Below, one piece after another: positions 11,921-16,686 of a stretch of DNA of 64,000 nt. Both the position numbers and the translations under genes were made by a program. The notes below the pieces were generated by a model, which worked only from the letters and a program-made list of their open reading frames with translations, made no database searches and was not told the origin of the DNA. The stretch comes from Porticoccaceae bacterium (GTDB lineage Bacteria > Pseudomonadota > Gammaproteobacteria > Pseudomonadales > Porticoccaceae). Each line of letters opens with the position of its first letter. Position 1 is the first letter of the stretch. The stretch covers positions 39,919 through 103,918 of the forward strand of contig JAHEGD010000014.1 in the NCBI GenBank assembly GCA_024639885.1, written 5' to 3'.

Positions 11921-11939
11921 CTGTCATATTTGTGTCATC
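11921..11939 (+). promoter_or_regulatory. Pho box upstream of phoB
   Basis: CTGTCATATTT-GTGTCATC direct repeat, 11-bp period. Confidence 0.8.
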
Positions 11940-12017
11940 TACTTTACGAAAAATTTGGGAATAGAAACGATGTGTCCAAGAGACCAGAGTGAACCACACT
12001 GCCACGAGGAATCGACA

Positions 12018-12716
12018 GTGCCCAAACAGTTAATTTTAGTCGTAGAGGATGAACCGGCGATCCGCGAGATGCTCGCGATCGCACTGGAGGCGGCCGACTA
12101 CCGCGTGATTACCGCCAGCGACGCACAGAGTGCTCACGGCCGAATTATCGACGACAAGCCCGATTTAGTACTGCTCGACTGGATGATGCCCGGCACCACC
12201 GGGCTAGAGCTACTGCGCCGGCTGCGCCGCAACGACATCACTGCCAAACTGCCGATTGTGATGTTGACCGCCAAGACCGATGAAGATGCCACCATCACCG
12301 GCCTGGATGCCGGCGCCGACGATTACATTCAAAAGCCGTTCTCGCCGCGTGAATTGATCGCCCGCATCAAAGCGGTACTGCGCCGGCTAGGACGCGAAGA
12401 GCTGGTCGACCCGATCAAAGTCGACGAGCTGGATTTTGACCCAGTCTGCCACCGGGTGACTATCGCCGGTGAAGCAGTAACCCTCGGCCCCACCGAATAC
12501 CGTCTGTTACAGTTCTTTTTGACCCACCAGGAGCGCGTCTACTCGCGCGACCAGATCCTTGACTACGTCTGGGGTGGCAATGCTTACCTCGACGAGCGCA
12601 CCGTAGATGTCCACATCCGGCGGCTGCGCAAAGCCATCTCTAACCAAGGTTACGAGCGCTACATTCAGACCGTTCGCGGTGCCGGCTACCGCTTTTCAAA
12701 GCTGACCGGCGAATAA
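12018..12716 (+). CDS. phoB: Phosphate regulon response regulator PhoB
   Basis: PKQLILVVEDEPAIREMLAIAL...winged helix DERTVDVHIRRLRKAI; GTG start at 12018 preferred over upstream extension. Confidence 0.95.
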   Translation: MPKQLILVVEDEPAIREMLAIALEAADYRVITASDAQSAHGRIIDDKPDLVLLDWMMPGTTGLELLRRLRRNDITAKLPIVMLTAKTDEDATITGLDAGADDYIQKPFSPRELIARIKAVLRRLGREELVDPIKVDELDFDPVCHRVTIAGEAVTLGPTEYRLLQFFLTHQERVYSRDQILDYVWGGNAYLDERTVDVHIRRLRKAISNQGYERYIQTVRGAGYRFSKLTGE

Positions 12717-12724
12717 ACGCTCGC

Positions 12725-12904
12725 TTAGGCGCGAACGCGCTGTGGCTGCTCGCTGCTGGCCACAAATTCACGGATAAAACGGCGCACCTCTCGCGCGGCG
12801 CTGGTGTCGAGCTCATCGCACAGCGCTAGGAACGAATCTTTGTCCTCTTTATTGAGCCTGATGATCAGCTGGCTGTCTTTACTGCGCTTTTTCTCTTTAC
12901 TCAC
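12725..12904 (-). CDS. Small ribbon-helix-helix-like protein, 59 aa (not in ORF track)
   Basis: GTG start: MSKEKKRSKDSQLIIRLNKEDKDSFLALCDELDTSAAREVRRFIREFVASSEQPQRVRA; beta-strand + two helices pattern typical of RHH/CopG; Pho box upstream. Confidence 0.75.
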   Translation of the reverse strand: MSKEKKRSKDSQLIIRLNKEDKDSFLALCDELDTSAAREVRRFIREFVASSEQPQRVRA

Positions 12905-12980
12905 GGCTCCGCTCCTGCCTGTTCATCGATAATGCTGCTGTACTGCGTTTTGTTATACATCGGCTATGAGCTTAAAGTGC

Positions 12981-13013
12981 TTTTATGACAATTTAGCGAC
13001 AATTAGATGGCAG
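12981..13013 (-). promoter_or_regulatory. Three-unit Pho box upstream of the 59-aa ORF
   Basis: Minus strand CTGCCATCTAA|TTGTCGCTAAA|TTGTCATAAAA, three 11-bp units. Confidence 0.65.
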
Positions 13014-13032
13014 TCCAGCCGAATTAAACAGC

Positions 13033-13061
13033 AAAAAAAACCCGGCAAGCCGGGGTTTTTT
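13033..13061. terminator. Bidirectional terminator downstream of TonB-receptor remnant
   Basis: AAAAAAAACCCGGCAAGCCGGGGTTTTTT. Confidence 0.8.
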
Positions 13062-13080
13062 ATTGCCACTGCAGGGCTGT

Positions 13081-13545
13081 TTAGAACGACCATTGGTAGT
13101 CGAGTGAGACCGACATACCCGGCGCTTTGGTGAAGGTCACCACGCCGTTTTGTTCAATTTCGATCGACTCGTCGAGCAGATTCTTAACCTTGAGCTTGAT
13201 GGTTGAACTCTCGTCCGGGTAGAACGAGTAAGTCATATCCAGCGAGTGGAACGGCTGCTCGAATGAGTCGGCCGAACCATTGCGCCCAGCCAAATAGAGC
13301 CGCTCATCAAATACGTTATAGACGACCATCGCCGCGTGCTTGCCGTCATTAGAGTCGTAGCCCAACTGCATATTGAAAGCGAGATCCGAGGCGCCGGTCA
13401 TATTACGCACCGGGTTGGTCGGCGCATCGGCATCACTACCGCTAGCCACCAGTTCGGTGTCCAGTGCGGTAAGGTTGCCGGCAACAAAGAATGGCGTGAA
13501 GCTATCACCCAAAAACGCCAAGCTCTTCAGCACTTGCCACCGAAC
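13081..13545 (-). pseudogene. C-terminal remnant of a TonB-dependent receptor
   Basis: Reads ...NMTGASDLAFNMQLGYDSNDGKHAAMVVYNVFDERLYLAGRNGSADSFEQPFHSLDMTYSFYPDESSTIKLKVKNLLDESIEIEQNGVV...SVSLDYQWSF* (beta-barrel end with terminal aromatic); no plug domain. The N-terminal part of ORF 13081..13677 is antisense to phoR, so the upstream boundary is approximate. Confidence 0.75.
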
Positions 13546-13619
13546 CGCAATTGACGGTTGCAGCGCCGCCCCGCTAAAGGCAGACTGCGGCTTTAATTCG
13601 CCCACCGCAGGAGAGCGCC

Positions 13620-14909
13620 ATGCGCCCAGGCCTACAGACCGAGTTTTGGCGTATCGCCTATGTGGGGCTGTTCTCACTGCTGTTTGGTCTCAGCGTCGGC
13701 TACCCGGCCGAGCTGCTACTGCTTGGCGGTGCGCTCTATATGGCGTGGACTTTCAACACCATCGAGCGGCTGTTTCGCTGGATCGACCGCGGCATGCGCG
13801 GCAGCCCGCCTGACCAGGGCGGCGTCTGGAGCGAAATCGGCAACACCCTCAACCGCCAAAAGCGCCGCGACAAAGCCCGCACCGGCAAGTTGCGCTCTAC
13901 TATTGCGCGCATCTCCAGCCTCACCGAGGCGCTCGATGAGGGCATTGTGGTCGTTCGCGACGACTTAACCGTCGATCTCTGGAACAGCGCGGCCAAGCAG
14001 TACCTACAGCTGCGCAGCAGCGACCGCGGTGCGCCGATCACCAACCTGCTGCGCCAGCCCGAGTTTGTCAGCTACATTGCCCAACGGCCGTTTGCCGGCG
14101 AAGTCGAGTTGCAGTTAGGGGTGCGCGGCGAGCGCACGGTAAAAATATCCGCCTCTGAATTTGGCCGCGGCGAAATTGTCGTGGTGATCCACGACGTCAC
14201 CGCACTGCGCCAGCTTGAGCGGCTGCGCACCGAGTTTGTCGGCAATGTCTCACACGAGCTGCGCACCCCGTTGACCGTCATCAAGGGCTATGTCGAAACG
14301 CTCGGCGATGTGATCGACCCCCAACAGGCCGCAACCCATCGCGCGCTCGGCCAAATTGGCGAGCAGGTGAAGCGGATGCAGGCGCTCGCCGACGATTTAA
14401 TTGTCATGTCCAAGCTCGAGTCGGCAGGCGCTGTCGAATGTAGCGAGCCGGTCGCGGTGATGGCCGTGGTTGAGCAGCTGCTGGCCGACGCCAACAAGCT
14501 CAGCGACGGCCGCCACACCATTGAGCTGAACGCGCCGGACAATGCCGCCAACTGGCAGTTGCTGGTCCGCCAAGAGGATCTGGCCAGCGCGCTGGGCAAT
14601 ATTCTGTTTAACGCGGTCAGTCACAATCCGGGCGGCTGCACGATTACCATGCAGCTGCGGCAGATGGGCGGCCAACTAGAGGTGGCGATAAAGGATAATG
14701 GGGTCGGCATCGCCAGCGAGGCAGTGCCGCGCATCACCGAGCGGTTTTACCGCGCCGACAGCAGCCGCAACTCTGAGACCGGCGGCAGTGGGCTCGGCTT
14801 GGCGATCGTCAAACACATTGTCCAGCGCTACGGTGGCGATCTCAGCGTAGAGAGCCGGCTCGGCGCCGGCAGCACCTTTACCTGCACACTGCCGCTGGCC
14901 GACGGCTAA
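13620..14909 (+). CDS. phoR: Phosphate regulon sensor kinase PhoR
   Basis: HisKA (FVGNVSHELRTPLTVIKGYVETL), HATPase (GGSGLGLAIVKHIVQRYGG), two N-terminal TMs. Confidence 0.94.
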   Translation: MRPGLQTEFWRIAYVGLFSLLFGLSVGYPAELLLLGGALYMAWTFNTIERLFRWIDRGMRGSPPDQGGVWSEIGNTLNRQKRRDKARTGKLRSTIARISSLTEALDEGIVVVRDDLTVDLWNSAAKQYLQLRSSDRGAPITNLLRQPEFVSYIAQRPFAGEVELQLGVRGERTVKISASEFGRGEIVVVIHDVTALRQLERLRTEFVGNVSHELRTPLTVIKGYVETLGDVIDPQQAATHRALGQIGEQVKRMQALADDLIVMSKLESAGAVECSEPVAVMAVVEQLLADANKLSDGRHTIELNAPDNAANWQLLVRQEDLASALGNILFNAVSHNPGGCTITMQLRQMGGQLEVAIKDNGVGIASEAVPRITERFYRADSSRNSETGGSGLGLAIVKHIVQRYGGDLSVESRLGAGSTFTCTLPLADG

Positions 14910-15475: not shown

Positions 15476-16423
15476 TTAGAATTTGTGCTCCATACCAACG
15501 CCGAGGTAGTCGTGGTCGTCACTGCCATCTTCGTTGGCGGTGTAAAAACCGTACAGCTTGGTTGAGCTGGCCAGTTTGTAGTCGGCACCGATGCTAAGGG
15601 TCTGCTTGTCGCTGTCGCCACTGTCGCTGTCGACACTGCCGTACTGGGCTTTCAGCGTGATGTCGTCGAGTTTGTAGGCGGCGCTGACAAAATAGCCGTC
15701 CTCATCTACATCGCCATCGTCTTGCGCGCTCTCATTTTGCTGGTAGATAAAGCCAAGCTGCAGCGCCTGCAGCTGGTATTGAGCCACCAAGCGCAGCAGA
15801 TCTTGGCCCTTGACGTCGTCGTCGCCAGCTACCGCCAGGTAGAGGTCGCCGCTGCTGTAAGAGAGCGAATAAGAGACGCCGTCGGCGAGGCCGCCGTTGC
15901 CGTTGGCGTCATCTTCGCCGGGCATGACTGCCACGCTGGCTGCAAAGCCGTTGATGGTTGGCGAGGTGTAGGCGACCATGTTTTTAGCGCGGGTCTCACC
16001 GTCAAGTAACACCTTCAAATCCCCGTCGAGGTCGTTGAACAGGTCGACCTTGTTCTGCGCCATTTTGGTCGGGGTGTCGTGGTTGCCGGCCCACACCATA
16101 CCGTAACTACCTTTAAGGCCGACCATAATGTTGCGCTGTTTGAACGGGCTGTCGCCCGAGCAGATACCGTCATCGGCGCAGACTTCAAACTCGGCCTTAT
16201 AGATGGCGTAGAGGTCGGGCTTGAGCTCTGATTTACCCTTCACACCCAGCCGCGAGGCGTTGCTGTTGAGTTTGTACTCGTCGCTGCCGGGCCCCTCGTC
16301 AGAGTCGACCACCGACAGGTTGACCTTGCCGTAGATGCTGCCATCGAGTGGCCCCGCCGCCCAGGCTGGCAGCGCCATCGCGCCGGCGACTAGTGGCAAC
16401 CAAAATTTTGCAGTGCTGTTCAT
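15476..16423 (-). CDS. Gram-negative outer-membrane porin, probably phosphate-starvation induced
   Basis: Signal peptide; GPLDGSIYGKVNLSVVDSDEG...SKLGVKGKSELKPDLYAIYKAEFE-like porin pattern; C-terminal ...YLGVGMEHKF; Pho boxes upstream. Confidence 0.88.
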   Translation of the reverse strand: MNSTAKFWLPLVAGAMALPAWAAGPLDGSIYGKVNLSVVDSDEGPGSDEYKLNSNASRLGVKGKSELKPDLYAIYKAEFEVCADDGICSGDSPFKQRNIMVGLKGSYGMVWAGNHDTPTKMAQNKVDLFNDLDGDLKVLLDGETRAKNMVAYTSPTINGFAASVAVMPGEDDANGNGGLADGVSYSLSYSSGDLYLAVAGDDDVKGQDLLRLVAQYQLQALQLGFIYQQNESAQDDGDVDEDGYFVSAAYKLDDITLKAQYGSVDSDSGDSDKQTLSIGADYKLASSTKLYGFYTANEDGSDDHDYLGVGMEHKF

Positions 16424-16462: not shown

Positions 16463-16539
16463 TAACATGACATTTTTGAGTCACTTGCATGAAGCAACGG
16501 TGACAATAATGCTGCAGCTTTGTGACATTAATATGACAA
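16463..16539 (-). promoter_or_regulatory. Extended Pho-box array upstream of porin
   Basis: Minus strand in 11-bp units: TTGTCATATTA|ATGTCACAAAG|CTGCAGCATTA|TTGTCACCGTT|GCTTCATGCAA|GTGACTCAAAA|ATGTCATGTTA. Confidence 0.65.
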
Positions 16540-16576
16540 CTGGCCGCGGTCGCCACGCTACCCCATCCACAGCCGG

Positions 16577-16595
16577 TTGTCATATTACTGTCATA
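16577..16595 (+). promoter_or_regulatory. Pho box upstream of pstS
   Basis: TTGTCATATTA-CTGTCATA. Confidence 0.85.
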
Positions 16596-16686
16596 AAGTC
16601 GTCTTAATCTGCTCACCGTCAGATTGTGTAATTGGCCTAACGCCAACTACTGCCCACGCTGTCAAACGCATGCAAACGAGGTCACT

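Follow-up and report, generated by a model that had tools for sequence, protein, structure and literature searches.

Small ribbon-helix-helix (RHH) repressors of the Arc/CopG/AmrZ type are the described proteins to which the one reported here is best compared. Like them, it is about 50-60 amino acids long, has an RHH fold by structure comparison, and belongs to a family with a palindromic, AT-rich site in its own promoters, which makes autorepression probable. Unlike them, it has a core of its own with an invariant cysteine, gave no significant match to any solved structure in a PDB sequence search, and comes from a family that appears to be under Pho-box control in several lineages. The core also matches phrog_19878, a family of unknown function, significantly but weakly (E 1.8e-6 to 4.5e-9, five family members); phrog_19878 is a phage family, whereas only two related loci of the RHH family were found in viral contigs. 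A search of the open literature found no published description of an RHH protein together with PhoB and a Pho box; RHH, PhoB and phosphate starvation occur together in seven papers, none of which concerns such a protein to judge by its title. For the genes that surround the RHH gene in a relative, the closest described layout is that of Caulobacter crescentus, in which the lipoprotein ElpS and the TonB-dependent receptor Cc0171 are encoded beside a type II secretion cluster, and ElpS is made in phosphate starvation (PMC2996285).

The gene lies in a stretch of 64,000 nucleotides, hereafter the window, from the 2.2-Mb draft genome of a Porticoccaceae bacterium. The first-pass annotation had proposed an unannotated 59-aa gene with a GTG start beside phoB, and the gene, its coordinates and its protein sequence were confirmed (Table 1). 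The two genes are convergent, with 8 bp between their stops (12717-12724), and AGGAG lies 8 nt 5' of the GTG. The protein is encoded once in the genome. Compared with its ortholog in the sister strain LSUCC0057, of the SAR92 clade (PMC6588378), the gene has a dN/dS of ~0.06 (dN 0.11, dS near saturation). On the strength of its homologs and this ratio, the ORF is a true gene.

Table 1 Features of the phoB/RHH/phoR locus (positions in the window)
Feature	Position	Strand	Basis or remark
phoB, convergent neighbour	11955-12716	+	own Pho box at 11921-11942
RHH gene, 59 aa, GTG start	12725-12904	-	ORF, homologs, fold, dN/dS
TGTATAACA, degenerate form of the TGTATATACA candidate operator	12951-12959	-	both genus members carry ATGTATAACAAAA
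Three-unit Pho box, 11-bp period	12981-13013	-	score, genome-wide pattern, kept in LSUCC0057
GC-rich inverted repeat then T-run, between receptor remnant and RHH promoter	13026-13061	-	judged by eye
TonB-dependent receptor C-terminal remnant	13081-13551	-	90% identity over 156 aa to the 884-aa receptor of LSUCC0057
Deletion junction	13530-13609		~17 kb of LSUCC0057 missing: type II secretion genes, lipoprotein, TonB-like gene, most of receptor
phoR	13620-14909	+	

An RHH fold of the MetJ/Arc superfamily is well supported by structure prediction, in agreement with the layout first suggested from the sequence. The AlphaFold model of the single chain contains two helices (residues 19-31 and 36-52) predicted with high confidence (mean pLDDT 82). 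The N-terminal strand is absent from this monomer model; in RHH proteins this strand pairs only in the dimer. The top PDB matches in Foldseek are all RHH proteins (CopASO antitoxin domain, Arc, ParG, AtaR, PutA and AmrZ), with probabilities up to 0.99 and a TM-score of ~0.68; every E-value is at least 0.1, as is to be expected of a chain this short. Pfam RHH_9 reached E 0.044, below its family cut-off, NCBIfam gave no relevant match, and neither curated collection assigns the protein to a family.

The consensus of 65 aligned homologs reads KKDSQL-IRIN-EERD-FV-LCDELDTSAAREVRRFIR, and the core, DSQLIIRIN-ERD-FV-LCDELDTSAAREIRRFIR, includes the invariant cysteine. M1, F25, C29, D33, A36, R38, E39, R41 and F43 are invariant. 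The cysteine C29, the same in all 65 sequences, could be structural or could provide a redox or metal input. Relatives of the protein were found in 13 of 146 related genomes and in 11 of 368 further genomes drawn from the class (two genomes are common to both sets), as well as in at least 135 stretches from a collection of 85,462 species. The hosts include Oceanospirillum, Marinobacterium, Photobacterium, Vibrio, Salinivibrio, Alcanivorax, Alteromonas, Acinetobacter, Rhodobacteraceae and Desulfuromonas. The family is widespread in marine bacteria, is unnamed so far and is without a curated Pfam or NCBIfam family. Members also occur on plasmids of Acinetobacter (L244, L245, L247) and Salinivibrio (L246), annotated as hypothetical protein or without annotation, and rarely in viral contigs (L338-L339), which indicates that the gene can move.

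A PhoB-type site on the RHH gene's own promoter is well supported by its sequence. Its three units, read on the minus strand from 13013 to 12981, are CTGCCATCTAA / TTGTCGCTAAA / TTGTCATAAAA and lie 76 bp 5' of the start; LSUCC0057 keeps the units CCGTCACAACG / CTGTCGTTAAA / TTGTCACAAAC in the same place. With a weight matrix modelled on the E. coli consensus, and used alike for targets and controls, the best two-unit score of this promoter is 20.8 bits, against 3.9 +/- 2.7 in dinucleotide shuffles of it. The other sites of at least 15 bits in the window lie only at phoB and in the porin/pstS region. The first-pass annotation had itself called for a comparison of the box with the genome background, and this comparison favours the box: the strict pattern YTGTCRNNNNNYTGTCA matches twice in the whole genome, in the RHH promoter and in the porin/pstS region. 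The latter region has two strong boxes (21.7 and 24.8 bits) at 16518-16598, between the porin gene (15476-16423) and pstS (from ~16624).

Boxes of at least 17 bits occur in 10 of 89 family promoters compared with 5 of 527 control promoters (Fisher P ~4e-6), and the five control hits adjoin Pho-type genes or share intergenic regions with them. The ten strong boxes, two of which (L018 and L045) are in opposite orientation, fall in about six scattered places on the family tree, whose deep branches are unreliable for so short a protein. A strong box is missing from the other 79 promoters, so Pho control does not extend to the family as a whole.

The palindrome TGTATATACA occurs exactly in 55 of 92 family promoters and in 2 of 1,560 control windows, and the aligned family promoters show aaTGTATATACATTg.ATAT. 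With at most one mismatch allowed, the distance from site to start is 27-180 bp, with a median of 61. Because the palindrome is found upstream of most homologs, it is probably the protein's own operator. The exact form is absent from the genome studied here; a degenerate form, with ATGTATAACAAAA at the same position in the window and in LSUCC0057, is present. No -35/-10 geometry beside the candidate operator rose above shuffles, and repression is therefore assumed from the RHH class. As a genome-wide regulon finder, TGTATATACA was discarded, being contaminated by HutC-type sites, LexA-like sites at a umuD-like gene, and intragenic or chance matches. In two genomes, closely similar TGTATATACA sites were also seen (L131:1501 and L207:1527) upstream of the same gene, which looks uracil-DNA-glycosylase-type; in L207 a Pho box lies near the site.

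Candidate operators are found at phosphate genes in a few lineages of relatives. The gap between pstB and phoU carries two TGTATATACA-type copies 21 bp apart in G329, G189 and G537, where some copies differ in one end base, and a single copy in G097; the first three are close relatives and make up three of the four cases. At phoU of the window's genome and of LSUCC0057, no operator was found within one mismatch. A TonB-like gene has the core GTATATAC close to its start in LSUCC0057, G007, G018, Paraglaciecola marina and a Spongiibacteraceae MAG; these five are all the genomes in which the RHH and TonB-like genes were found together. In these five genomes the TonB-like gene is close to a TonB-dependent receptor gene, with Pho boxes nearby, and in all except G018 a lipoprotein gene is also near. 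Ten related genomes have the lipoprotein and no detected RHH gene; they contain neither a GTATATAC-type site at the lipoprotein gene nor a close copy of the TonB-like gene, and nine of them keep Pho boxes at the lipoprotein gene. In six of the ten (L251-L255, L257) phoU precedes the lipoprotein and receptor genes, a position that links the system to phosphate metabolism, and strong Pho boxes stand upstream of the lipoprotein gene.

The RHH gene itself adjoins phoU in three genomes, with pstCAB before phoU where the contig is long enough; in G188 the contig stops within the phoU beside it. In G197 its neighbours are ppx on one side and genes for PPK2 and CHAD proteins on the other (L182:4498-8477), a neighbourhood that suggests a possible link to polyphosphate metabolism. 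At L179:7232-8458, L180 and L181 the RHH gene follows a gene for a secreted-looking protein of ~310-320 aa next to phoU genes, and the pair is preceded by an exact TGTATATACA; the one such protein searched had no Pfam match. Other RHH neighbourhoods vary widely.

The comparison with LSUCC0057 also indicates how the locus arose. There, phoB and phoR are ~18 kb apart, and a type II secretion cluster, the lipoprotein, TonB-like and receptor genes and the RHH gene lie between them. Window positions 12706-13529 and 13610-14000 match both ends of this stretch, 17.0 kb apart in LSUCC0057, from which we conclude that the present phoB/RHH/phoR layout results from deletion of a Pho-linked island. What is left of the receptor gene formally has an open frame to 13677, and its 90% identity implies that the loss may be recent. 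Misassembly at the junction is possible in a draft genome, yet both sides join within one contig. The lipoprotein and TonB-like genes were not found elsewhere in this genome. The island of LSUCC0057 resembles the ElpS/Cc0171/type II secretion cluster of Caulobacter in its gene layout; the consulted part of that source mentions no RHH gene in the ElpS cluster, and the likeness concerns the island rather than the RHH gene (PMC2996285). The activity of the Caulobacter cluster in phosphate starvation supports a role for the island, not for the regulator (PMC2996285).

This history bears on the earlier idea of a secondary or feedback regulator of the Pho response. The weight it placed on adjacency to phoB is lost, as no examined homolog outside this genus lies beside phoB and the layout is the scar of the lost island. 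A response-regulator neighbour in Vibrio (L069) was considered and not identified as phoB. Nor was any operator-like site seen at phoB, which leaves feedback on that gene unsupported. The role of secondary regulator gains indirect support instead from the operators at phosphate genes and the phosphate neighbourhoods in relatives.

We then propose a model, to which we assign a probability of about 0.6, in which the protein is a PhoB-induced, self-repressing RHH regulator that would add a second layer of control above accessory phosphate genes. PhoB is active when phosphate is scarce. PhoB would bind the Pho box and turn on the RHH gene, and the RHH dimer would bind TGTATATACA-type sites, its own promoter first, leading to autorepression. 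In relatives, the dimer would also bind at accessory phosphate genes, some of which PhoB would likewise activate. From the arrangement of sites we infer an incoherent feed-forward loop that may limit or time the expression of the accessory genes. In the genome studied here, the deletion removed the island that was probably the local target, so that autoregulation and other targets would be left. It is tempting to extend the model to a widespread family of minimal RHH repressors, induced by PhoB and autoregulated through TGTATATACA, that tune the expression of phoU, of polyphosphate genes or of TonB/type II secretion systems for phosphate scavenging, with the cysteine in the first helix perhaps adding a signal input; this extension is tentative and, on balance, doubtful.

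One alternative is an RHH protein that regulates itself and otherwise acts on targets unrelated to phosphate, with the Pho box simply providing starvation induction in some lineages. The very varied contexts of the homologs, which include plasmids beside unrelated genes, fit such a protein, as do the many promoters without a strong box. However, the operators found between pstB and phoU and near the TonB-like gene speak against it, as do the RHH genes that neighbour phoU or polyphosphate genes and the recurrence of Pho boxes, and we regard this explanation as rather unlikely. Less probable still is that the RHH gene is a leftover of the deleted island, intact but functionless and soon to decay. 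The loss of the lipoprotein and TonB-like genes, the visible junction and the well-preserved receptor remnant would agree with recent abandonment, and so would the degenerate operator, except that LSUCC0057, in which the island is present, has the same one. The Pho box, start site and reading frame are all intact, and the low dN/dS also argues for function, though it mostly reflects time before the loss.

The closest folds include antitoxin DNA-binding domains, which raises the question of whether the protein is the antitoxin of a type II toxin-antitoxin pair. Across ~90 neighbourhoods, no partner recurs among neighbouring ORFs of at least 90 aa, and the pair was rejected for want of a recurring partner gene. 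The protein moreover ends right after the RHH domain, with almost no toxin-binding tail, and the BrnT/BrnA pair near one plasmid copy has an antitoxin of its own. An antitoxin is thus very improbable, and the PhoB-induced, self-repressing regulator remains the reading we prefer.

Accounts of the Pho response usually stop at PhoR-PhoB, and phosphate is often limiting for marine bacteria. If the model is true, the Pho circuit has lacked a layer in these accounts, namely a conserved, unannotated RHH family under PhoB that places operators at phoU and at scavenging genes. The model specifies a binding site and a limited set of targets and is directly testable. It would also provide a function for genes now annotated as hypothetical.
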